From Porphyra umbilicalis (taxonomy: Eukaryota; Rhodophyta; Bangiophyceae; Bangiales; Bangiaceae), in the NCBI GenBank assembly GCA_002049455.2, contig KV918856.1, positions 177,859 to 241,858 of the forward strand: a DNA stretch of 64,000 nucleotides. Reading direction: 5' to 3'. The notes under the pieces are model-generated. The model was not told where the DNA came from. It saw only the letters and a list, made by a program, of their open reading frames with translations, and ran no database searches. A program made the position numbers and the translations under genes. Positions 1,400 to 34,715 of this stretch are shown in pieces (position 1 is the stretch's first letter; each line of letters starts with the position of its first letter).

Positions 1400-2790
1400 G
1401 GACAAGCGCATCGCCGGCGAGCATCTGTTCGGGTCGGTTGGCCGTGCGGCCCCGCTTCTCTTGTGGGCCGCTATGCGGTGCAGCGAGGAGGAAAGCCTCC
1501 AGCGGCTTGGCGCAAAGAATGTTGACCCACCTCATTCTCTTTGCCCACGGCATCGGCAACGTCCGCACCCTCGCGTCACCGCAGCCGCTAGCGCGGCGGC
1601 GGCAACCCCCCCCCCCCCCTCGCAGCCCCGCGGCGGACGCGCCTTCCCCGCGGGCACGCCGCTCGCCAAACCGCCGCGGCGAGCCGGCGGGCGGCGAAAC
1701 CCCCGACGCCCGTCGCGGCGGCGGCCGCCAGGGGCCGGCGCCCCGCAGAAAGCGGCCGAAAAGCGGCCCGCCCGCCGCTGGGACGGGGGGGGGGGAGGCC
1801 ACACCCGCCCCCTTTTTGCGGGTCGGCCCCCGTGGGGGGGGGGAATGTGCGCTTGCCTTGTATGCGACGGGGAGGCGCATCGACGCGCAAGGGGGCGGTC
1901 ACGACAGGGTCGCCATCCCCGCCGCCGCCGCCGCGGCCGCCGCGCCAAGCCGTCTCGGCGGCAGCGGCCGGCGGCGGCTCGTGGCACCCCCCCCCCCCCC
2001 CCCGAAGTGCGATAAAATTACTGTATGCGGCCGTTGCGCAGGCCCACCCCCCGCCCGCCCACCCCGCCACCCCCAACCGCGCCGCCGTCGCGTCGGCCGC
2101 CACAGGCGAAAAATCCACGCCCATCCGTGCACGCCGCCCTCTGCCTAACTCGCCCTCCTCCAAAAAGACGCGTCAGCTTCGTCCTTATTGTTGCAGTCCT
2201 TGCCGTCATGGCGTTCCTCCTCCGCTGCGACGGCGGCGGTAGCGGCGGCGGTAGGGGTGCCTTCCCGCCGCCGCCTCCATCCTCTGCTTTTGCGATGGCG
2301 CCTTCACCGGCGCCGACGCGGGCGGCGGTGCCCACGGCGGCGTCGACGCGGCGGAGACCCCGGTGAGCCGCATCTGGTCGGCGTCCGCCGCTACCGTGGC
2401 GTGGTTGGCGCGGATGCCGCTGCTACGCTCGGCGGCCGCCTTATCCGCCGAAGCGGGGTGGTCCACGTACACGTCGGCGTGGGGATCCGACGGCAACGCG
2501 AGCGGAGAGGAGGTGTACGTCGTCGCAGCGCTGGTTGTGACGTTTACGCCTGACAGCGAAACGGGTGACCGGCGCCCCCGGCGGGGCCCCAAGAGCTCTC
2601 TTGGCGGCACGATCACGGGCGCGGGCGGTGGCGGCGGCGGCGGCCGGCTGACGTCGTGGCGGCGGTGCGGAGAGCAGACAACATGTTGACAAGCGGAAGG
2701 AACGAAAGCAATAGAGCAAGGAGAAAAGGAAAGAGACCAGTTGGAAAGCGAGAAGAAGGAATCAAACCGACAAGAATGGCCGCCGCATAC
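1400..2790. other. anonymous GC-rich, low-complexity DNA
   Basis: This stretch is dominated by CCG/CGG triplets and C or G runs (for example around 1611, 1785, 1838 and 1988). Long frames exist on both strands but translate into Pro/Arg/Ala/Gly-rich composition with no motif. It may contain the decayed 3' end of the DIRS-like element. I see no gene I can support. Confidence 0.4.
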
Positions 2791-3330
2791 TCAAGGCCAG
2801 ACGTCGACAGCAGCCCTACGCAAATTGTCCTCCGATACGTGCTCAAGGGCGGACAGCTCGCGACGCACCACGTCGGGCTCGCCAGCGTCAGCGCAACAGC
2901 TCGCAAAGCGCCATACCTGGCGCACCGCCTCAATAAGGGACACGCTTGACTGAAACGTCTCCGCCCTCGCATCCACCATCACGAGCTCCAATCCCCACGA
3001 TTGGTCGACCCCCACACCAGACACACCAAGAGGCAGGTCGTGACTGCCGTGATACGCCAGCGCTTCCCGTCTATTGAGGAGGCGGGAAAGCACTGTGTCA
3101 GTCAAACAGCCCAGAAGACGGCAGGCCTCGGTCCTCGTCATATCAGGCGAGGGGGTCCAGAACGCAGGCGGCGTACGCCACTGTCCGCGTCCCTCTCCAA
3201 ACTCAGACACTCTTCTTCCTGTTGCGGATGCACGTAACGCCGCCCCCCCCCCCGTACCACTCCCCCATTCCGACGGGTCCTCTGGGACCGCAAGTTCCAC
3301 TAGCCCGGTGCAAATGGGCGAAGAACCCAT
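2791..3330 (-). CDS. hypothetical protein downstream of the oxygenase-like gene
   Basis: This is a 179-residue frame, starting at the ATG at 3330 and ending at 2791, with mixed amino-acid composition unlike the surrounding low-complexity shadows. The C-terminal half is predicted helical (FQSSVSLIEAVRQVWRFAS, then a charged RRELSALEHVSEDNLRRAA stretch). It begins only about 9 bases after the stop of the oxygenase-like gene on the same strand. That is unusual for two independent nuclear genes. A C run at 3241-3250 or a missed intron could make it the C-terminal part of the same protein. No family was recognised. Alternatively the two ORFs belong to one mobile element. Confidence 0.4.
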   Translation of the reverse strand: MGSSPICTGLVELAVPEDPSEWGSGTGGGAALRASATGRRVSEFGEGRGQWRTPPAFWTPSPDMTRTEACRLLGCLTDTVLSRLLNRREALAYHGSHDLPLGVSGVGVDQSWGLELVMVDARAETFQSSVSLIEAVRQVWRFASCCADAGEPDVVRRELSALEHVSEDNLRRAAVDVWP

Positions 3331-3339
3331 CACCTTCCC

Positions 3340-4155
3340 CTAATAAATGTGGAAGCGGACGTGACGGACGTCGTACGCCACCCCGGCGTGCACCATATCT
3401 TGTCTCAAGACAAAGATGTCCCTGACCCCAAAATCCTCCGTGGTGACATTCAAACCGCCTTCCGGAAGCACCAAGCAATGGTGGCGGTGCATGAGGCGGT
3501 GCGAGCCAGCCGCCACTTCCAGACGGGAGTCCGGCTGCACAATAATTAGCGCCCCCGCGTTTGGGGCGCTCCTGCTCTCACGCCACGCGCTGCATGCGTC
3601 GGTATGTAGAGCTTGATGCGGCAGGGGAAGCACGAAGAGGATGTGCGTCAGCTTCTCCGCTGTGTAGGCCTTCCCCGTCACAGCCGATAAGAGGTCCACC
3701 AGCGCGCGCACACAACTGCGTAGCACATCTATTGCCGCCACGTCCACCGCCGTAAAGCATGGCGGCCGCGCGCCGTCGTCTGCAAGCGCATACGTTTTGA
3801 GGTGCCGCGCGGGAGCCGCGGATTGATTCTGGCTAACCCGAATGCGGGCATCCTCCTCCTCTACCGTCGCCGCGTTGAAGATGACGGGGAGGGCCGGATG
3901 TGACGCGGGCACGCGGCTAGCCGCTCCCGAGAGTGCAGAAGCCAGCGCTGGCGACAGACAAGCTCCCAACGTCATTCCGCCTGGCCCGCCGTAGCCAAGG
4001 GCAGCAGCAACCTGCTCGCAAGTGGCGGCGATGTTGAATCCCAGCTCGTCCGGCCCCCATGACGCCGTCGAAACCACCTCGGGAAATTCGAGTCCCTCCT
4101 CATGCGCCCGTCGGGCGGCGGCCCTCTGGGCTTTTGACCGCCGTCGCTGCGGCAT
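3340..4155 (-). CDS. 2OG-Fe(II) oxygenase-like protein
   Basis: This is an intact 271-residue frame. The ATG at 4155 was chosen because the longer frame starts at a non-ATG codon. The N-terminus is basic (RRRSKAQRAAARRA). The C-terminal third has the pattern of a double-stranded beta-helix dioxygenase: HTD (His184, Asp186), beta strands ALIIVQPDSRLEVAAGSH, then MVHAG (His256) and VRFHIY with Arg267. That gives HxD...H for iron and a distal Arg for 2-oxoglutarate, as in PhyH-like or prolyl-hydroxylase-like enzymes. Substrate is unknown. A second ORF follows almost immediately on the same strand. The assignment is from motif spacing only; a cupin or mobile-element protein is possible. Confidence 0.45.
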   Translation of the reverse strand: MPQRRRSKAQRAAARRAHEEGLEFPEVVSTASWGPDELGFNIAATCEQVAAALGYGGPGGMTLGACLSPALASALSGAASRVPASHPALPVIFNAATVEEEDARIRVSQNQSAAPARHLKTYALADDGARPPCFTAVDVAAIDVLRSCVRALVDLLSAVTGKAYTAEKLTHILFVLPLPHQALHTDACSAWRESRSAPNAGALIIVQPDSRLEVAAGSHRLMHRHHCLVLPEGGLNVTTEDFGVRDIFVLRQDMVHAGVAYDVRHVRFHIY

Positions 4156-4919
4156 CGGCAGGGAGAACAAATCCAGGGGTGGCGTCGGGGTAGATGAGGC
4201 CAGTTCGGTGGGGATTGGGTCGGAGTAGGTGGAGACCGGTCGTGGGGGATCCCGTGGGGGTGCAGTGGTGACAGAGTCGACGCTGTCGACACAGTCTCGC
4301 CCTCGTTGCCTGTCGGCGTGACAACGTCGGAAACAGCCGATGAGGTTCCCCTGAAATCCTTAAAACCGAACGGAAATAGAACCAAGCTGTGACATCTGTC
4401 TCGGCGGCGGAACGGAAACCAGTCAAGAGCACTATATATGGCGGCTACAGTACAGTTTTGATTGCGTTGACCGCCGTCGAGTCCCAGCTGGCGACAGCCT
4501 GTGTCGGCTCCACGCACAGCGGCCTCCGTTGCTCGGTCCCTCTGCCCCTCCCGCCTTCTGCCCCCACCGTGCTCTTTTGCACCACCATGGGGTCCCCTGG
4601 CCCTGTCTTTGGTGCGTGTACCTTTCCTCACCTCCCCCTCCGCTAGCACGCCCTCGGCAGGTACCGCGCCTGAGTACGGGTACACAAAAGACGCTTCTTA
4701 GCGTCGCCCTGGCTCCACGCCGATGCGCCTCGCGCCTCTCGGTGCGCGCTGGACACTGTGCCCTGTGCACTACGCTGTGCCTGACGAGTTTGTGCGGTGG
4801 AAGCGGGACGGACAAGAAGTCACTTCGCCTAACCGCCCCAGCCGCGCAACCACCTCCCACCATTTACCGCTTCTCCCGCCCAACAACGTCCCCCGCCCAA
4901 CAAGTTTCCCACCAACGCC

Positions 4920-5130
4920 TGCCTCCTATCAACCTCGTCCGCCGTAGAGCATTCCTCGGTCGCCGCCTAACACCTTTCCCGCCGGCGCCTACCTCCTATA
5001 AACCTCAATCGCCGTCGAGTGTTCCTCAGTCGCCGCCTTACGCGTTTACTTCCGGCGCCGTCCTCCTATCAACATCGCTCGCCCTCGAGCGTATCTCGGT
5101 CGCCACCTAACGCTTGTTGCCGCCAAGAGC
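4920..5130. repeat. about 70-bp tandem repeat, 3 copies
   Basis: The phrase CCTCCTATcAACcTCg recurs at about 4922, 4992 and 5062. Each occurrence is followed by an imperfect copy of GTCGCCGCCTAACrC. The spacing is near 70 bp, with several point differences between copies. Confidence 0.6.
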
Positions 5131-23834: not shown

Positions 23835-26800
23835 ATGGACATGGGCGGCGACCGTGCCACGGCCGAGCGGATGGACTGGGCGGCCGATGCCGTGGCCGGC
23901 CCGCCGACCCCCCTCCTCTTTGTCTCTGTCGCCCGCCCCTACATGGCCGGCCTGGAGCGCTCCTACCGGAGGGCACTTGCCAACGACGACGCGTCTGGCG
24001 TTGCCGTTGCCGTCGAGGCGGCGGCCTTTGCCCAGCGCGCCGTCGCCGTCTTTCACGCCATCGACGCGCTGTACGGCGACGGCACCGCCGAGCCGTCGGG
24101 CGGCGGCGGCAGTGGCCGCCGCGGCTCGACGCGTGGCAACGGCAGCCGCCGCTCTGGCGCGTCGGCGTCGTCGTCCCTCCGGTGGACCCCCGCGGGCGCG
24201 TCATCGGGCGGCCGCTCCACCCCCGGCGAGCCCCCCTCCGTCGCCGGCAGCGCGGCGACGGACCGCCCCCGCCGCGCACCCGCGTCGGTCGTGGCCGCCG
24301 AGCAGCTGGCGGCGGCGGTGCGGCGGGACGACCCAGGGCGCTACTCCCCCGCCGAGGCGGCGGCGGTGCCCTACCTCCTCCGTGCCAAGGCGCGCCTCTT
24401 TGAAGCCGTCCGCTCGGGGGACCGCGGCGCGGTGCGGGCGCTGACGCTCGCGTGCGAGGAGGCGCTCGAGCAGAGCGTCGGGAGTGGCAGCCAATTTGTG
24501 CTAACCGTGCCGGGGCACGCGCCGCCGACGGGGCCTGGGGGGGGGGGGGGACCGCCGGCACCGCCGCCGCCGTGGGTGCCGCCGGTGGCCTCCTCGCCGC
24601 CCCGTCGTTTGGGCGCGGCGGCGGGGCAGAGACGGAGGATGTCGTCGCGGCGGCCGACGATTCCGACGTGGAAGACGTGGCCGGGGGGATCAAGGGCCGC
24701 GGCGCCACCTCCCCCGTGGACGACGGGGGGCCCCGCTCCCGCGCCGCCGCCGGCTGCGCGGCCGCCCGCCGGCTGCTCACGTGTGAGCTGCTCCGCGTCT
24801 CCAAAACCGCCTCTGTCGTCACCTTTCTCTACTTTCTGCTGGCGATTGCGTCGATCGCCGCCATTGTCTTCATCACCGTCCAGTTTGCCAACGACGTGCG
24901 CAACCCCGAGTCGGGCATTGAGCTCGTCCGCCACACGGAGCTGGCCATGCCCACCGTCACCGTTTGCTCGACGCAGACGGGGGTTCCGCTGCGCCGGTTA
25001 CAGTTTTTCAACTACACCGACGCCGCGGGCGTGCGCGTCGGCGGGCCGTTGCCATTCCAGAAGTTTGGCACGACCGAGTTTGAGGCGGTCGTCGAGCGGT
25101 TTTGGGACAACCCAGACGGGGAGGACTGCGACCGCATTTGCGGCAACTTTTTTCCGCTCCCGGTGCGGACGCTGCAGCAAATCTCCAACGGGGAGCTGTC
25201 AACCAAGTGCCGCCCGTGCTTCCGGACGGGCTCCAAGGGGCCCGAAGTGATTGCTCGGTCGACGGCGTTTTCGGCGGCGGCCTTTATGGAACTGTACACA
25301 GGTACGTCGGGCAGCGTGCGGGGGTGAGCAGAAGGCGCTGACAGTACGAAGTCAGGGAGTAGACGGCGTTTTTCTGTGAAAGTGTGCGCACCGACTGACC
25401 ATTGCCGTTGCTTTGGCGCCCTGTGTCGGCCCTCAATGTTTGTGTGTCCTGGTTGTTGAGCGCAGATCATGCATTCTTCCAGGTACGTCCGCTCGCCTTT
25501 CTTTAACTTTCGCCGCGCACGTGGTTGGTCGCGGCCTTTTCGTCGCCTGTTGCGCTTGGAGATTGTTGTCTGGATTGTCGTGCATCGATCATCACCTCTT
25601 GGGCTTGTGTGCGGACGTGCCGGCCTCTGACACTTTTGGCTCTGCTCTCGCCTGAATGCCTCATTCTGTTTGTGTTTGTACTGTGGATGGCCATGCAGTG
25701 TATGTTCCGCGCAAACGGAGTGGACGACCCAGCGCAGGACGAGATGCGCCTGACGGTTGGCAAGGCCGATTTTGCTGCCGAATTCTTTGGCGCTACCCCT
25801 CTGGCGCCCGGCGACCCCACGCCTGTCCTCACAGTGCCTGCGACTTCGACTCGAGTGGATGCCATCGCTGCACTCGGCTCGGAAGAACTGTGCAACGTCC
25901 TGTACTTTGCGGTGCTTCCCGTCCGCTTAAACGACTCGGTGCCGCTCGACGCGGACATCAAGTACACCTTTGACGGCACCGGGTGGACACGGACGGGCGA
26001 CGGTCCCTACTTTGTGCCCCGGACCGAAGGGCAAGTGCAGACGGGCTCACCCGAGGAGGGCCTCCAGGTGTTCATCACGGCGCGGGATGCTCCGCTGCCG
26101 CCGGGCGGCGTCACCTCCCTTGCAGACACGGCGCTCCTCGGCCCCAACTCAGAGGTGGCTATCCTGTTCAACCGGCGGCAGGTGGACGACAAGCCGCGGT
26201 TTGCCATTTCCTCGATCAGCTCGTCCAACCGCCTGGTCGTCAACATTGCCGACTGGAGCGGCTACTGGCTACAGTACGCGGTGCACCTGTCGTACGCGAC
26301 GTTTGTAGAGGTACGTGCTGCAGCTGTTGTACTTTTCTTGGTGTCTGGCCGGCGCCGCCCCGCGATTGCGTGTTGGCAGGCACCCAATGACTCGGTCAAC
26401 TCACAGAGCTCCCTGATGTGTCCCTTGACTGAATGTGCTTGTGTGTGTCGAATGGGCTACCACACCGCAGGAGCAGCTGAGGGACGTACACACCTACCCC
26501 GTGACGCAGTGGCTCGTGGATGTGGTACGTTTTGGGCGCTAGTCTCGGAGCCACGCCTTTTTCGAATGGGTGGTATCCGCCACAGCGGTGCCGGCGGCCA
26601 GCAGCGCCCGCCTCGACACTCGTCCCGCCCACCGAGCGGTGTGGTACTGACGGTTCTTCTACGCACCGCCCGCGTCTGGCTCCGTTTCATGGTGTTGTGT
26701 GGACCCCTCGCAATCCCTCTCCTCACCCCCCCCCCCCCCCAGGCTGGCTACATTGGCCTCTTCACGGGCGCCTCCCTCTTCTCCATCATGGTCGTGCCGC

Positions 26801-27015
26801 TGCTGCAACTCCTCCGCCGGCGGGACCGCCGAGAGTCCCTCGCCGCGCGGCCGCTCGACACGCTCTACTCCCCGTACCACGTGGTGCGCGCGTCGCGCGC
26901 GACGCCGGGGGTGATGGGCGACCTCGCGGCGCCGGCAGGGGTGCTTGGGGGTACAACGGGTGGGGCGGCCGGCACCGGCGGCGGCGGCGGCGGCGGCGGC
27001 GCCGCCGCAACGTAA
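23835..27015 (+). CDS. DEG/ENaC/ASIC-like cation channel, copy 1
   Basis: The proposed exons are 23835-25301, 25466-25482, 25699-26310, 26471-26524 and 26743-27015, giving about 807 residues if a 14-G run at 24537-24550 is off by one or two bases. The start ATG has a CGCC upstream context. A cytosolic N-terminal region of about 300 residues precedes TM1 (FLYFLLAIASIAAIVFITV). MPTVTVCSTQTG follows, matching the P-x-VTIC motif at the start of the DEG/ENaC extracellular domain. The extracellular part has few cysteines. The pre-TM2 segment and TM2 read VTQWLVDV-AGYIGLFTGAS, with the G-x-S selectivity filter of the family, then FSIMVVPLLQLLRRRDRR. The pre-TM1 HG gating motif is replaced by LR (CELLRVSK). 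All four introns start GTACGT. Family assignment is from motif order and is inferred. Confidence 0.75.
25466..25482 (+). other. 17-nt microexon (DHAFFQ) of channel copy 1
   Basis: Seventeen bases lie between an AG acceptor (25464-25465) and a GTACGT donor (25483). Exon 1 ends with one base of a codon; joined to it, the microexon reads D-H-A-F-F-Q and leaves phase 0 for the next exon, which starts CMFRANGV. The paralogue has a microexon of the same length and peptide at 33050-33066. Confidence 0.8.
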
Positions 27016-27212
27016 TGTAAGGACAGATGAGCATGCCCGCGGCGCATGGGGCTCGACTGCACGTTGCATCTCGCTCGGTATGAGTGTTTTTGCATTGCTG
27101 CCCGCGTGGTAGGTCGTGCGCGACGGGTCCGCGGCGCCCGTACCGTACATGTGCCAGACGGGGCGTTGCGGGCCGGGTGAGGTTGCGTTGTTTGGGACGC
27201 TGTGCATCCAAG
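27016..27212. other. convergent intergenic spacer
   Basis: This is the short spacer between the stop of channel copy 1 (plus strand) and the stop of the cysteine-rich repeat protein (minus strand). No additional feature is visible; it must hold the 3' ends of both transcripts. Confidence 0.5.
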
Positions 27213-29188
27213 TTACGTAATCACATGCCGCCCGTGATCATCAGGGGCGGAATGGCCCTCCCCGCTCGCGAGGCAGCCACCCCCCCCGCCACCCACCGGC
27301 GCCATGCGCCCACGGCCGTGGCCGCGTCGGCACCACGCGGGCGGCGCGGGCCCCCCGGCGGAGCCGTGCGCCCCCGCGCACGACCGTCGAAAGTCTGACG
27401 GTCCCGACGGCGCCGGGCCGACCGTGATTTCAAAGTCGCCGGGGCTGCGCCGGGGCAGCGGCGGCGGCGTCGGCGGCGACGACGACGGCGCCGCCAACGG
27501 CGTCGGTGGCGGCGGTGGCGACGGCGGCGGCGGCGGGGATACCTCCCCCCCCCTTCCCCCCCCACACACCGCGTTGCGCGACACAAACGGCGGCGGCGGC
27601 GGCGGCGCTCTCACCGTTTCCCGACACGCGCACTCCCCCCTCCCCACGTGGGCGAGCCGCACCCGCCCCGAGCGGCCGTCGACACACACTTGGGGCAACA
27701 CCACCACGGACGACGGGGTGCAGCCCGACCAGCCATACATGCAGCCGCCAACGACGCCCATGGCGGCCTTGTGCGCGCAGCAGGGCGTGCCGCCGCCGGC
27801 GCACGCGGCGGCAAAGGCCGCCCACACGGCGGCGTGGTCCCCCCCACACGCCGCCGCGGCGGCCACGGCGGCCGTCGGCGCAAAGCCCGCCGCCGTGTCG
27901 ACGACCGGCACGGTCGGCTGCAGCGCCGGCGGCGGCCTCACATTGGCACACCCCGGCTGCCGCAACACGATTGTGCGCGGCAGCGGCACCGCCGCCGTCG
28001 TGTCGGCCACGTACCCACACCCACACGTGCCTGGCGGCGCCGGCCGCGTCGCCCCCGTCGCCACGTCACACACGCGCAGCACGAGCGACGCGACCGACGG
28101 CGTGCACGACGGGATGCGGTGGCAGCACCCCCCGTCGGTCGCACAAAACCAGTCGCCCTCGTGGCAGCACGTGGCCGCGTTGGCGCCGCACGCCGACTCG
28201 GCGGCCACGTACGCGGCGGAGCGCTCCGCGCGCCGCCCACACGCCGTGGGAATGACGGCGGCCGCGGGGGGGGCTGCCGCCAGCGCCACGAGTGACCTGG
28301 ACGGCGGCCGGTCCCCCGCACCGAGGGGCGTGGCGCAGGCAGCGTCGCGGCGGCGGTTTGCCAGCGGCGGCACCGTCGACGACGCAACGGCATTGGTGGC
28401 GCCGCAGTCGCACTCACCGGCGGCCGCGTCGGCGAGGCGCACGCGGCCGGTGGCACCGCCGAGGCACACGAGGGGGAGGATGGTCACCGACGATGGGGTG
28501 CACCCAGACCAGGTGTACATGCACCCACCCACGACGCCCATGGCGGATTTGTGGGCGCAGCAGGGGGCGCCGCCCGCGCACGTGGCGGCGACGGCCGCCC
28601 ACGTGCCTGGCGGGTCCCCCCCACACGCCGCGGCGGGCCGCGCCGCCGCCGTCGGCACGTACTCCGCGGGCGCCGCGTCGGTCGCCACCGTCGCCGGCCA
28701 CGCTGGCGGCGGGCGCACGTTGCCACACCCCGGCACCGGTTGATAATCACGGCCGGCATCGGCACCGCCCCCCCCGTGTCGGCCACGTACCCACAGTCGC
28801 ATATGCCCGCCGGCGCGGCGGTGGTGCCGCCCGTCCCAACGTCGCACACGCGCGGCGCGAGGACGGCGACGGTGCTCGAGCAGGCGGCCATGTCGTAGCA
28901 GCACCCGCCGTCGGCGGGGCAAAACCACGACGCCTCGTGGCAGGACGCCGCCGCGTCGGCCGGGCACCCCGTGACGGCGGCGACCAAGGCGGCCTCCCGC
29001 TCGGCGCGCGTGCCGCACGCCGCCGCCGCGCGGGCGGCGGGGGAGGTGGCGGCGGCCGCGCTGCCGGCGGCCGCCGCCGCCGCCACCGCTGACGCGAGGA
29101 GGAAGAGGCACCGGCGGGCGGCGGTTGGGGGTGGGGCAGCGCCGGCGCCGCGGCGATGCCGGGCAGCCGACACGGGGGCCACCACCAT
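27213..29188 (-). CDS. secreted cysteine-rich A-B-A-B repeat protein
   Basis: The start is the ATG at 29188 (ACC ATG G context). A basic N-terminus is followed by a hydrophobic signal segment (CLFLLASAVAAAAAAGSAAA). The body is two tandem copies of a two-module unit. Module A runs ACGTRAERE...SCHEASWFCPADGGCCYDM...CDVGTGG...CDCGYVADT. Module B runs GCGNVRPPPA...ACGGD...CCAHKSAMGVVGGCMY, then TWSGCTPSSV and ECDCGAT. The second A and B copies keep almost every cysteine. The C-terminus is proline-rich. At about 28734-28736 the first A-to-B junction is one base shorter than the second, which breaks the frame. The protein is probably extracellular or cell wall; no known family was recognised. It sits between the two channel genes on the opposite strand. 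Confidence 0.65.
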
Positions 29189-31335
29189 GGTGGGGGCGGC
29201 GCGGGGGGGAGGACAGGCGCAGACAGGATGGGAAGCGGAGGCGGACGCTGAAACAGAACCGAGGAGAGGGGCAGTCGGCAACACCGACGACTGCTTCGTG
29301 GCACAACAACGGCGATCAGCGTCCAAGCGAGCCGGCCTGTGACCATGGTCACGGACGAGAGGCGACTGGCGGGCCCCGCCTGTTTCAAAGGAGACAACGA
29401 GCAGGACAACGAGCGAGGACCCACCGGTGTCCGCTCGTGGCCCTGCTCGAGTCCACTCGCACACGTGGCTGGTTCCGTGATCTGACCCAGACGGTTGGTC
29501 ATCGATTGAATGGCATGCGTCGCGTCGAATCGCCCAGCACTTTGACGTCGACCCGCGACGGCCCCGACGCGGTCGCCTGCCGCTGCGCCGTCACCATTGG
29601 CGGCGACGGCGCGACCCCGAGCACGCTGCCAGCCCAGGCCGCCGTGGGCGCGGGACGGCTGTGGGACTCGCTCTTTTTTCGTCTAGTTTATTCCTCGTGG
29701 CGACGCCTGCGTGCGCGCGGACGTTTTTTTTTGTTTTTTTTTGCGTGGCATTCCCGTGTGCTGCCCGCCGGCCTCTGACACGCCGCCCTCCCGCCGCTCG
29801 TGCCACGGTGCCACTGCGATGCGGTCGGCGCGCGCGTTGCGCGCGCGCCGTGCGCTGCCGCCGGTCCGACGCGCCGCCGCCACCCGTCCCCCCCCCACGG
29901 CCTCTCTGGTGCGCGCCGAGTGGGGTGAGGGGGGTGCCCCCCACCGCCCGTCGCTCGGTCACCACCCCTGCGACGCTGAAAAAAAGCCGCGGCGGCCGCG
30001 ACGCGCCGCAGCCGGCGCGCCGCGGCGGGCGCCCCTCGGCCCGCCCACCGCACCGCCGGCGGCGGCCGCGTCGACACGACGCGCCGACCCCCCCCCCCCC
30101 GCCCGCGCCGCCCCCGCGTGCCGACACTGCGGACCGGCGGCCCATTGACGAGGCGTGCCCCCCCCCACCGTGCGGGCGGCGCCCGCGCGCCGCGGCGCCC
30201 CGCGCGGCCGGCGGCGGACCCCGCGCGGGGACAGCCGCCGCCCCGCCGCCCCGGCGGGGCGGCCGCCGCCAACCACCCACGCGGGGGCGGCGCACGGGCG
30301 CGGCGGCGGCGGGTGCCGGCCCACCGCGACGACGGCGGTCCGCGCGTGGCGGCGGCCACCGCCTTTGCACGCACCCGCGTCTCTGCCCTCCACGCGCACA
30401 CCGTGCCGCGGGACCGCGTCGGCGGCCGCCACACGCTGGCGCGGCGGTGCGCGGCTCTCGCGTGGGGCTCCTCCCCCCCCCCCCACCCCCCTTCTGCATC
30501 TTGCAGAGGATGGCGACCGAGCCGGCGCGTCGCGTCGGGCCCCCGGCGCGAGGACGACCGCCCGCGCCGTGGCGGGGCGGCGGCGGCACCGCTGCTGGCC
30601 GCCCGGGGCGGCGCTCCACGGCGCCGGGGCGTGGGAGGCGGCGGGGGCGGACACCCGTGGGGGGGGAGGGGGGGGGAGGGGGGGGGATCATCCATGATGG
30701 CCGCCGTGCACGGGCCCCACCACGATGATCGTCGGTGCAAAGTGGGAGGGGGGGGGGGGGGGGGCGACGCGGCGCGCGGCGCGGCGCACAGCGCGGCGCG
30801 CGGCGCGGCGTACAGCGCGGCGCGCGGCGCGGCGTACAGCGCGGCGCGCGGCGCGGCGTACAGCGCGGCGCGCGGCGCGGCGTACAGCGCGGCGCGCGGC
30901 GCGGCGTACAGCGCGGCGCGCGGCGCGGCGTACAGCGCGGCGCGCGGCGCGGCGTACAGCGCGGCGCGCGGCGCGGCGTACAGCGCGGCGCGCGGCGCGG
31001 CGTACAGCGCGGCGCGCGGCGCGGCGTACAGCGCGGCGCGTCGACGCGGCGCACAGCGCGGCGCGTCGACGCGGCGCGCGTCCATGGGGCGGCCCCCGCC
31101 GGCGCGCCGCGCCGTCCCCTCAACGACCGGCGGGCCGCGCGGCGGCGGCGGGTCCCGCGGTGCAGGCGCGACCGGCCGCTCCCGCGTGCGCCCCCCCCCC
31201 CCCTCCCCTCCGCATCCCCCCCCTCCCCTCGGCGCTCCCCCCACTCCCCTCTTTGCTCTTCACTCTCCCCCCGGGGCGCGCCTTTTGCACCCCCCTCCCC
31301 CCCCCCCCCCTCCCCCCCCCCTCCCCCCCACCACC
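29189..31335. other. GC-rich intergenic region upstream of channel copy 2
   Basis: It contains a T-rich patch at 29675-29750 and then strongly Pro/Arg/Ala/Gly low-complexity sequence on both strands, with C and G runs. No domain is recognised. A 24-bp minisatellite occupies 30771-31066. Confidence 0.45.
30771..31066. repeat. 24-bp minisatellite, about 12 units
   Basis: TACAGCGCGGCGCGCGGCGC recurs with an exact 24-base period from 30811 to 31027 (ten units). It has CACAGC variants at both edges, and the right edge carries a GTCGAC variant. It translates as an ARGAAYSA octapeptide on plus and APRAALYA on minus. It lies about 0.3 kb before the start of channel copy 2 and has no counterpart before copy 1. 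Confidence 0.9.
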
Positions 31336-31821
31336 ATGAACGCTCCCCACCCCCCCCCACCCACCCACCCCCTCCCCCCCCCCCACGGCGACGGCACGTC
31401 CCCCCCCCCCCCCCCCCCCCCCATGGGCGCCGGCATTGACTGGGGCGCCGACGGCGTCGACGGGGCGCTGACCCCCCCGCTCTTTGTCGCCGCCGCGCGG
31501 GCCTACATGCGCCGCCTGGAAGGCGCCTACCACGCCGCCCTCACCGCCGACGATACGGCGGGCGTTGCCGCCGCCGTCGAGGCGGCGGCGTTTGCGCAAC
31601 GCGCCGTCGCCGTCTTTCACGCCGTCGACGCGTTGTATGGGGATGGGCGGTCGGGGGGGGGGGGGGGGGGGGCGCCCCCACGGCCACGCGCGGCGGCGGC
31701 GGCGGCGGCGGCGGCGGTAGCAGTAGCGTCGGCCATAGCATCGGTCGCTGGGTGGGGGGCCTTGGCGGCGGCGGCGGTGGGGGTGGTGGGGGTGCGGGTG
31801 GTTGGGCGGGCGGCCGCCACC

Positions 31822-31853
<32 letters not shown>

Positions 31854-34715
31854 CGGCGGGGCTTGACGCCCGCCGAAGCGGCGGCGGTGCCCTACCTCCT
31901 CCGCGCCAAAGCGCGGCTGTACGAGGCGGTCCACGCCGGCGACGCGCCCCGCGTGCGGGCGCTCGTGCCGACGTGCGAGGAGGCGCTCGAGCAGGTGGTT
32001 GGGAGTGGCAACCAGTTTGTCCTCACCGTGCCGGGGGAGGCGCCACCGCCGGCAGCGGCGGGCGGGGCGGCGGCGGCGGCGGCGGCGGCGGGGGGGGGGG
32101 GTGGGGGGGCGCCGCCCCCGCCGCCGGCGGCGCCGGCGGCGACAGCGTCGACTCGGTGTTGGGCGCCGCGGCGGGCGGCGGCGGCGGCGGCAAGGCGCGC
32201 GGCGGGGCGAGCCGCGGGGCCGGCGGCGGCGGCGGGGGGGCGGCGGCGCCCCCCCCCCCCGCCACGCGGCTGACGGCGCTCCGGCGGCTCCTCACCTGCG
32301 AGTTGCACGGCGTCTCGAAGGCGGCCTCCCTCGTCACCCTCCTCTACGTCCTCCTCGCCGCCGCCTCCGTCGCCGCCATTGTTGCCATCACCGTCCAATT
32401 CGCCGCCGACGCGCGGCACCCCGCGTCGGGCATTGAGCTCGTCGTCCACCCGGGGGGGCTCCGCATGCCCCTCGTGACCGTCTGCTCGACGCAGACGGGG
32501 GTGCCGCTGCGGCGGCTGCAATTTTTTTCCTACCGGGCCGCCAATGGGGTGACGGCGGCGGGGCCGCGGCCAGACGGGTCCCCGGCGTCGCCCGCCTTTG
32601 AGGCGGCGGTGGACCGCTTTTGGGACAACCCGGGGGGGGAGGACTGCGGGGCGGTCGCGGGCGACTTTTGGCCCCTGCCCCTGGGTTCGTTGCAGGCGAT
32701 TGCGGCGGGCACGCGCGCGACGCGGTGCCGCCCGTGCTTTCAGACGGGGGGGAAGGGGGAGCCGGTTGTGGCCGAGTCGACAGCGTTTTCGAGGGCCGCG
32801 TTTATGGAGCTGTACACGGGTACGTGGTGCGCGTGGGGGGGGGGGGGGGGTTGCCGGGAAAAAGGACGTGGGGGGGGGGGACGCTCGGGCGCTTGGAATG
32901 TCCCCACTGGGCCGCTGTGGAGCGGTCGACGTGCCACTCTCCCGCGCGGTGCTGACTCGCTGGTGTGCCCCGACGCTCTCTCGTGCCGTGCGGTGTTTCT
33001 GTGCGGTTGGTTGTGGTCGGTCGGACGGTCGTTCTTTGGCAACGGGTAGACCACGCCTTTTTCCAGGTACGCACGGTCCGCGGTGGCCCCGCGGCGCGTT
33101 TGGTCACCCGGTGCTCGATAGTTTTGGTGCTTTTGGCTTTCGGGGCGGGTGCGTCTCACGCCCGGCCGGGTCGCAGGGGCCCGACAGCAGAGCTCCGTAC
33201 TCACCGTGCGTGCCGGTTGCCCTCAAAGTCTATCGTCGTGGTGGCTCTTGCGTCGCCCTTGCGCTCTCCCTGTTGGTGGCCTCCCTCCCCCGCTGCTCCG
33301 CCCCCCAGTGCATGTTTCGGGCGGGCGGCGTCGACGCCGACGGCCTCGAATCGATGCGCGCGTCGGTCGCCGACCCCGCCAACACCGCCGAGTTCTTCGG
33401 CGGCCCGACCCCGGTCCTGACCGTCGGCCCCGGCGCCACACAGGCGGCGGCGGTGGCGGACCTCGGCTCGGCCGAGCTGTGCAACGTCCTCTACTTTGCG
33501 GTGCTCCCGCGGCGCCTCCTCGACGCGGCGGCCAACCGCACGGACCTGCCGGCCATTGCCTACACGTACGGCGCCGACGGCGGGTGGGCGCAGGCGGGCG
33601 ACGGCCCCTACTTTGTGTCCCCAACGGCCGAGCAGGTGCGGGTCGGCTCCCCCGAGGAGGGCCTCCAAGTGTTTATTTCCGAGCGCGGGCGGCCGCTGCC
33701 GCCGGGCGGCATCACCTCCCTGTCGGATACGGCGTTGCTCGGGCCCAACTCGGAGGCGAGCCTCCTCTTCACCCGCCGCCGCGAGTTTGGGCGCCCGCGG
33801 TTTGCCATCTCCTCGATTAGCTCCTCCAACCGGCTGCGCGTCAACATTGCCGACTTTAACGGCTACTGGCTGCAGTACGCGCTGCACCTGTCCTACGCGT
33901 CGTTTGTGGAGGTACGGGTGGGTGGAGACACGCGGCGGTGGCGTCGCTCTGGAACGGCCCATGCGCCGAGGCGGGTGTCCGAGTCGAGGCCGTTGGTTGC
34001 GCTGCTCGGCGACTGACCACGTGTGCCCTCCTGTGTTTGTGCGGCGGTGCCTTGACCTTTTGCCTGTACGCCCCCTTGCCGCTTGCAGGAGGTGGTCAAG
34101 GACATCCACACCTACCCCGTGACGCAGTGGCTCGTAGATGTGGTACGTTGTGGGCGCAACTCTCCGGGGACACCCCTTGCGAGTCTGGCCGGCACGCGCC
34201 ACAGCGGTGCACGCGGGCGCAGGCGCTCGCAAGTGCCCACCTCGACACGGGTCCCGCTCACCAAGCCGCGGCACTTACGGTCCCCCCACGTGCGCTCCTC
34301 GTCTGCCCCCGCTGCTGTCCGTTGCACACACGGCCCTCGCGCCCTGGGTCACGCCCCCCCCCCCCCCCCCCCCCCCACCCAGGCTGGCTACGTCGGCCTC
34401 TTCACCGGCGCCTCCCTCTTCTCCATCATGGTCATGCCGCTGCTGCAACTCCTCCGCCGGCGGGACCGCCGCGAGTCCCTCGCCGCGCGCCCCCTCGACA
34501 CCCTCTACTCCCCCTACCGCACTGTGCGGGCGTCGCGCGCCACGCCGGGCGTCATGGGCGACCTCCCCTCGCTCGTCAGTCAGGGGCTCCCGCTCCACAT
34601 CGGGGGCGGGGGGGGGGGGGGGGGGGCGCCGCCTCACCCCGCCTGTCGGGGCGGCTCGGGTAGGGGGGGCGCCGCGGCACCGCTGCACCGCGGCGGCCGC
34701 GTCGCGGCACGGTAA
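31336..34715 (+). CDS. DEG/ENaC/ASIC-like cation channel, copy 2
   Basis: The proposed exons are 31336-32819, 33050-33066, 33309-33911, 34089-34142 and 34383-34715. ATG 31336 has an ACCACC context; ATG 31423 is an alternative that matches copy 1 better. The register changes at G runs near 31658 and 32091. It is the paralogue of copy 1: N-terminal AAAFAQRAVAVFHAVDALYG, pre-TM1 CELHGVSKAAS with an intact HG motif, TM1 (LLYVLLAAASVAAIVAITV), MPLVTVCSTQTG, then HTYPVTQWLVDV and AGYVGLFTGASLFSIMVMPL. The GAS triplet is the family's selectivity filter. Exon boundaries and phases equal copy 1. The tail is Gly/Pro-rich with a G run (34607-34626), so the exact C-terminus is uncertain. The likely location is the plasma or another cell membrane. 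Confidence 0.75.
33050..33066 (+). other. 17-nt microexon (DHAFFQ) of channel copy 2
   Basis: It is flanked by a TAG acceptor (33047-33049) and a GTACGC donor (33067). It encodes the same D-H-A-F-F-Q as copy 1 and differs only at synonymous third positions plus the shared phase-1 base, which indicates selection on the peptide. Confidence 0.8.

Follow-up and report, generated by a model that had tools for sequence, protein, structure and literature searches.

Does a red alga possess ion channels of the DEG/ENaC superfamily, and if so, where did they come from? The question arises from two adjacent genes in a 64,000-nucleotide stretch of the Porphyra umbilicalis genome (contig KV918856.1, positions 177,859 to 241,858 of the forward strand; hereafter the window). 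A preliminary description, made from the sequence alone, had read them as a tandem pair of DEG/ENaC/ASIC-like channel genes in a probable red alga. The source is indeed a red alga, and the genes (gene 1 and gene 2) are tandem paralogues arranged head to tail on the + strand of contig C96 with about 4.3 kb between them. The span given for the pair, 23835..34715, was exact to the base, with an ATG at 23835 and the final stop codon ending at 34715. We conclude that the products of both genes are probably channel subunits, belonging to a divergent branch that red algae hold within the ENaC/ASIC (DEG/ENaC, PF00858) superfamily; three such subunits would form a cation pore with a GxS triplet. This reading rests on the predicted topology, the modelled ectodomain fold, the GxS triplet, six conserved ectodomain cysteines, the splicing pattern, and named relatives in Bangiophyceae and Florideophyceae.

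Family assignment and ectodomain fold

The spliced proteins were compared with PF00858, the check that had been proposed for them. Gene 1 scored 24.8 bits, above the cut-off of 23.6, with two stretches matched, whereas gene 2 reached 20.5 bits and stayed below it. Among 45 aligned relatives, PF00858 was matched by 22 (E <= 0.01) and was the sole family listed; reversed cores gave no match (0/3). Both genes carried the motifs named beforehand, namely MPTVTVCS or MPLVTVCS after the first transmembrane helix (TM1), HTYPVTQWLVDV before the second (TM2), and GLFTGAS within TM2. Furthermore, the structure model of the orthologue P0001 (Pyropia vietnamensis MMPV_002040) showed two transmembrane helices flanking a large ectodomain with a palm-type fold, and structure comparison identified this as the expected ENaC/ASIC-type ectodomain. 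The ENaC ectodomain core superposed over 179 residues with a root-mean-square deviation of 3.5, and six ectodomain cysteines were conserved in the family. A single-sequence fold of the relative P0011 was poor (predicted local distance difference test score, 35) and was dropped.

Several results weigh against this assignment, in addition to the score of gene 2. When 20 relatives were scanned singly, only P0011 exceeded the PF00858 cut-off. The Pfam signal lay mostly in TM2, and P0002, P0006, and P0007, which end before TM2, gave no PF00858 match. Alignment to a single ASIC1 with hhalign gave an E of 0.0021 but a probability of 13%, in TM2 only. When the 45-member profile was searched against the PDB, ASIC5 had an E of 0.32 and came after an unrelated intein, and ASIC5 and Pickpocket 26 (E 0.3-0.8) were mixed with unrelated chains. 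Foldseek ranked PAC (E 1.6e-7) above ASIC, and the transmembrane helices of the P0001 model were less certain than its ectodomain (blocks 48-81 for TM1 and ~57-72 for TM2). The HG motif before TM1 was found in none of the 36 relatives covering that region. When the whole genome (83.8-Mb assembly, 665 contigs) was searched in six frames with PF00858, nothing was obtained at E <= 0.001, because the exons are split.

Gene 1 had a single phmmer match in the PDB, an unrelated esterase (E 0.37). In NCBIfam, degenerin deg-1 came first for P0001 (E 0.13) and P0011 (E 0.08), both insignificant, and nothing was obtained for P0046 and P0050. In a control search, PF00858 exceeded its cut-off in the bacterium Thermotoga maritima, an odd match that is unexplained.

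Gene structure and coding integrity

After GT-AG joining, each gene comprises five exons and four introns, whose positions match between the genes, and all eight donors (8/8) in the two models start with GTACG. The features, in window positions, are as follows.

23835..25301, + strand: gene 1 exon 1, predicted cytosolic helical domain, TM1, and ectodomain start (open reading frames and splice model; same order in P0001, P0006, and P0007)
24815..24886, + strand: gene 1 TM1, VVTFLYFLLAIASIAAIVFITVQF (translation; orthologue P0001 modelled with a helix at 332-364)
25466..25482, + strand: gene 1 microexon, 17 nt, (D)HAFFQ (GT-AG borders and frame; junction sequence in P0001 and P0002)
25699..26310, + strand: gene 1 exon 3, ectodomain (splice model; 66% identity to the gene 2 exon)
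26471..26524, + strand: gene 1 exon 4, pre-TM2 segment HTYPVTQWLVDV (splice model)
26743..27015, + strand: gene 1 exon 5, TM2, GAS triplet at 26767-26775, predicted cytosolic tail, and stop (splice model; PF00858 positions 407-450)
31336..32819, + strand: gene 2 exon 1 (ATG at 31336 or 31423), helical domain, TM1, and ectodomain start (open reading frames and splice model)
33050..33066, + strand: gene 2 microexon, 17 nt, (D)HAFFQ (splice model)
33309..33911, + strand: gene 2 exon 3, ectodomain (splice model)
34089..34142, + strand: gene 2 exon 4, pre-TM2 segment (splice model)
34383..34715, + strand: gene 2 exon 5, TM2, GAS triplet at 34407-34415, tail, and stop (splice model; the PF00858 match below cut-off)

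Joined to the final base of exon 1, the 17-nt microexon encodes DHAFFQ in both genes and keeps the frame. The resulting TDHAFFQC is present in P0001 and in the EukProt transcript-derived P0002, and strings of this form occurred in 40 of the 48 proteins examined. The helical domain that precedes TM1 was conserved in the family, and it had no Pfam match above a cut-off in either gene or in the relatives scanned. Between gene 1 and gene 2, 338 of 489 residues were identical, and the introns showed 43-69% identity. By the NG86 method, non-synonymous divergence (dN) was 0.24 and synonymous divergence (dS) 0.71, giving a dN/dS of ~0.34, a ratio that is approximate owing to GC bias.

Exon 1 contains one frame change in gene 1 and two in gene 2. 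From the sequence, that of gene 1 probably falls at the G14 run at 24537-24550, and those of gene 2 probably at the G20 (31653) and G12/C12 (32090/32249) runs, although the exact sites are not fixed. If these changes were real, one or both copies would be pseudogenes, and the long branch of gene 2 in the tree would fit such decay. However, a long homopolymer is available as the site of every frame change, the remainder is open through five exons, and the microexon phase is retained with the dN/dS given above. Moreover, the gene 1 relatives P0006, P0007, and P0010 read through the equivalent stretch in a single frame; hence, the frame changes are likely homopolymer artefacts or polymorphism. 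We therefore regard a pseudogene as unlikely.

Two further elements were observed near the genes. A 24-bp minisatellite (window 30768-31076; 12.8 copies, 98% matches) lies upstream of gene 2. Between the channel genes, an open frame of 700 aa containing repeated units rich in Cys occupies window 27213-29315 on the - strand, and it is possibly a separate gene.

Pore region and comparison with known channels

The GAS triplet in TM2 of both genes had been equated with the ASIC filter triplet, and hhalign did place it in register with ASIC1, within the pattern D-x-x-G-x-x-G-L-F-x-G-A-S. Across the 45 relatives the triplet was GAS in 29, GIS in 3, GVS in 3, and GLS in 2 (GxS in 37/45), and GAA in 2; the other six rows had gaps or unrelated letters, and five of these belong to short proteins (294-574 residues). 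Three alignment positions were invariant, D718 (40/40), Y722 (40/40), and P738 (41/41), and conservation in the family was also among the highest at the GxS triplet and at the Asp and Gly that precede it. The residue before D718 was V in 35 of 40 proteins, I in 3, and A in 2. This V was paired by hhalign with the Gly of ASIC1 LLGDIGG, which we take to be the degenerin site. Large residues at the degenerin site favour an open pore. There was no acidic counterpart of the ASIC1 TM2 residue E451 in the family, and the algal TM2 has Pro at ASIC1 F453. With respect to the missing HG motif, gene 2 shows an isolated LHG and gene 1 LLR. In ASIC1 this motif lines the lower pore, as stated in part of one study (PMC7308080). 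If the algal proteins conduct, their lower pore must be built differently.

The algal proteins resemble ASIC in the two transmembrane helices, the palm-type ectodomain fold, and the P-x-VT-x-C following TM1. They differ from it in the long helical cytosolic N-terminal domain, in carrying Val at the presumed degenerin site, and in having six conserved ectodomain cysteines, where ASIC1 has fourteen. "ASIC-like" in the narrow sense is not supported, because the identity in Foldseek alignments was 8-11%, the HG motif and an E451 counterpart were absent, and PAC was ranked before ASIC; the wider placement stood, as the ASC family by Pfam and by the ectodomain fold. ENaC, the degenerins, and FaNaC share a G/SxS selectivity triplet, and no full-length similarity to them was found with gene 1 (phmmer) or with the 45-member profile against the PDB. 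The ectodomains of ENaC and FaNaC are larger.

In the proposed mechanism, the helical domain of each subunit would lie in the cytosol, and TM1 and TM2 would flank an extracellular palm-type domain that bears cysteines. A trimer, assembled from the products of one gene or of both, would enclose a pore with a ring of Gly-x-Ser in TM2, through which small cations, probably Na+, would enter the cell without voltage gating. We infer trimerisation, disulfides, conduction, selectivity, and extracellular gating. Both the lack of the HG motif and the Val at the presumed degenerin site suggest a pore opening more readily than that of ASIC. Its role may be a leak, or osmotically or mechanically modulated Na+ entry, which is a guess.

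Two other functions were considered for the same fold. The proteins might be anion channels like PAC/ASOR (TMEM206), which would be chloride conducting and acid activated, and the Foldseek result reflects this similarity of fold. No PAC/TMEM206 match was found at the sequence level in the PDB searches or in the Pfam scan of the 45 relatives, which listed ASC only, and PAC has no GxS cation filter. Alternatively, the proteins could be non-conducting two-helix receptors or scaffolds that have retained the fold. Features that matter in ASIC and ENaC are indeed gone (the HG motif and the E451 counterpart, with an invariant Pro in TM2), and two members have GAA in place of GxS; however, the GxS triplet, with its Asp and Gly, is among the positions that the family has conserved best. 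We consider the anion channel improbable, and the receptor or scaffold equally so.

Relatives in red algae and ancestry

Protein searches, each covering ~8000 candidates, gave 13 matches with gene 1, 46 with the profile, and 6 with a divergent-member profile, some of them shared. The named relatives came from Pyropia vietnamensis and Porphyra umbilicalis (Bangiophyceae) and from Agarophyton chilense (Florideophyceae), and one more was a EukProt transcript; presumably, all relatives are red-algal. In the search for orthologues suggested by the preliminary description, P0001 was found on a 2.1-Mb contig of P. vietnamensis and a homologue in Agarophyton. More distant relatives showed 26-35% identity to P0001. 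Pattern matches numbered 68 in GTDB genomes and 33 in viral contigs, and none was confirmed by tblastn; plasmids searched with P0001 also yielded no relative.

The same Porphyra genome contains further members. A partial third copy at C289 (L014) 5322-7938 matches the 3' part of gene 2 and has homologous downstream sequence; no TM1 part of it was found in the genome search, and it is apparently an incomplete segmental duplication. Divergent relatives were located on C654 (L015), C179 (L017), and C160 (L016). Those on C654 and C179 keep most of the cysteine pattern and, like their P. vietnamensis counterpart P0050, carry an EF-hand-like DxDxDG loop directly before TM1. Read by eye, this loop suggests calcium binding beside the pore; Pfam called no EF-hand there. 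P0050 has GLS in TM2 and a weak PF00858 match (15.1 bits, E 0.012). On C160, a 963-aa open frame (2154-5042) with LPVVIIC and FTGLSTFTLLIVP motifs and no Pfam match above a cut-off is a possible remote relative.

The EF-hand-type relative on C179 is interrupted by an insert of ~1 kb (3452-4450), whose inverted ends of 23 nt are 91% complementary and which has a 10-nt direct repeat, TTGAGCACTA. It is a DNA-transposon-like insertion. At its border stops the annotation of BU14_0279s0003, a P. umbilicalis protein identical to an open reading frame on C179.

The preliminary description had left ancestry and transfer side by side. Recent transfer from an animal, or contaminating animal DNA in the assembly, would accord with the parts of two papers in which DEG/ENaC is reported almost only from animals (PMC10507113, PMC9822975). 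However, the orthologue on the 2.1-Mb Pyropia contig, the Agarophyton homologue, the distant relatives, and the additional paralogues in the genome all point away from it, and no named animal protein was among the matches listed, most of which are nameless. Given the diversity of the family and the occurrence of named members in two red-algal classes, we regard a recent animal origin as highly improbable. These findings argue for an old family, with which vertical descent and a very old transfer are both compatible. An ancestor shared by Bangiales and Gracilariales probably already had the family, and the tandem duplication probably occurred in the Porphyra lineage or earlier. The tree did not place gene 2, and 8 of its 12 inner branches were open; accordingly, it does not settle the age of the duplication.

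In the portions of the literature considered here, a DEG/ENaC survey used initial BLASTp with animal queries over taxa including Rhodophyta, followed by HMMER at 1E-10; the candidates given there were holozoans, one alveolate, and one stramenopile, with no red alga among them (PMC10507113). The homologues of a heterokont (Cafeteria roenbergensis), an alveolate (Symbiodinium), and Tunicaraptor are likewise DEG/ENaC-type channels or candidates outside animals (PMC10507113, in part). Another paper describes, in the part considered, DEG/ENaC as absent from most unicellular eukaryotes except Heterokonta and Filasterea (PMC9822975). A BLASTp survey of this kind would probably miss proteins as remote as the red-algal ones. 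No description of a red-algal DEG/ENaC was found in the open-licence literature among the matches listed.

The published view sets DEG/ENaC channels at the base of animals and admits a few exceptions among protists (PMC9822975, PMC10507113). We propose tentatively, and it may well prove wrong, that the ENaC/ASIC-type fold predates animals and that red algae hold an old, vertically inherited family of several branches, including one with an EF-hand-like calcium loop next to TM1; this family would function in the absence of an HG loop and with a bulky residue at the degenerin site. If this is true, the animal channels would represent a single branch that has survived from a far older superfamily of eukaryotes, perhaps including PAC. 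A diverse red-algal family would alter the view of the origin of this channel class and would provide natural experiments on the HG loop and the degenerin site, both long studied. For Porphyra itself, the pair would be a candidate for DEG/ENaC-class cation entry in an intertidal seaweed.
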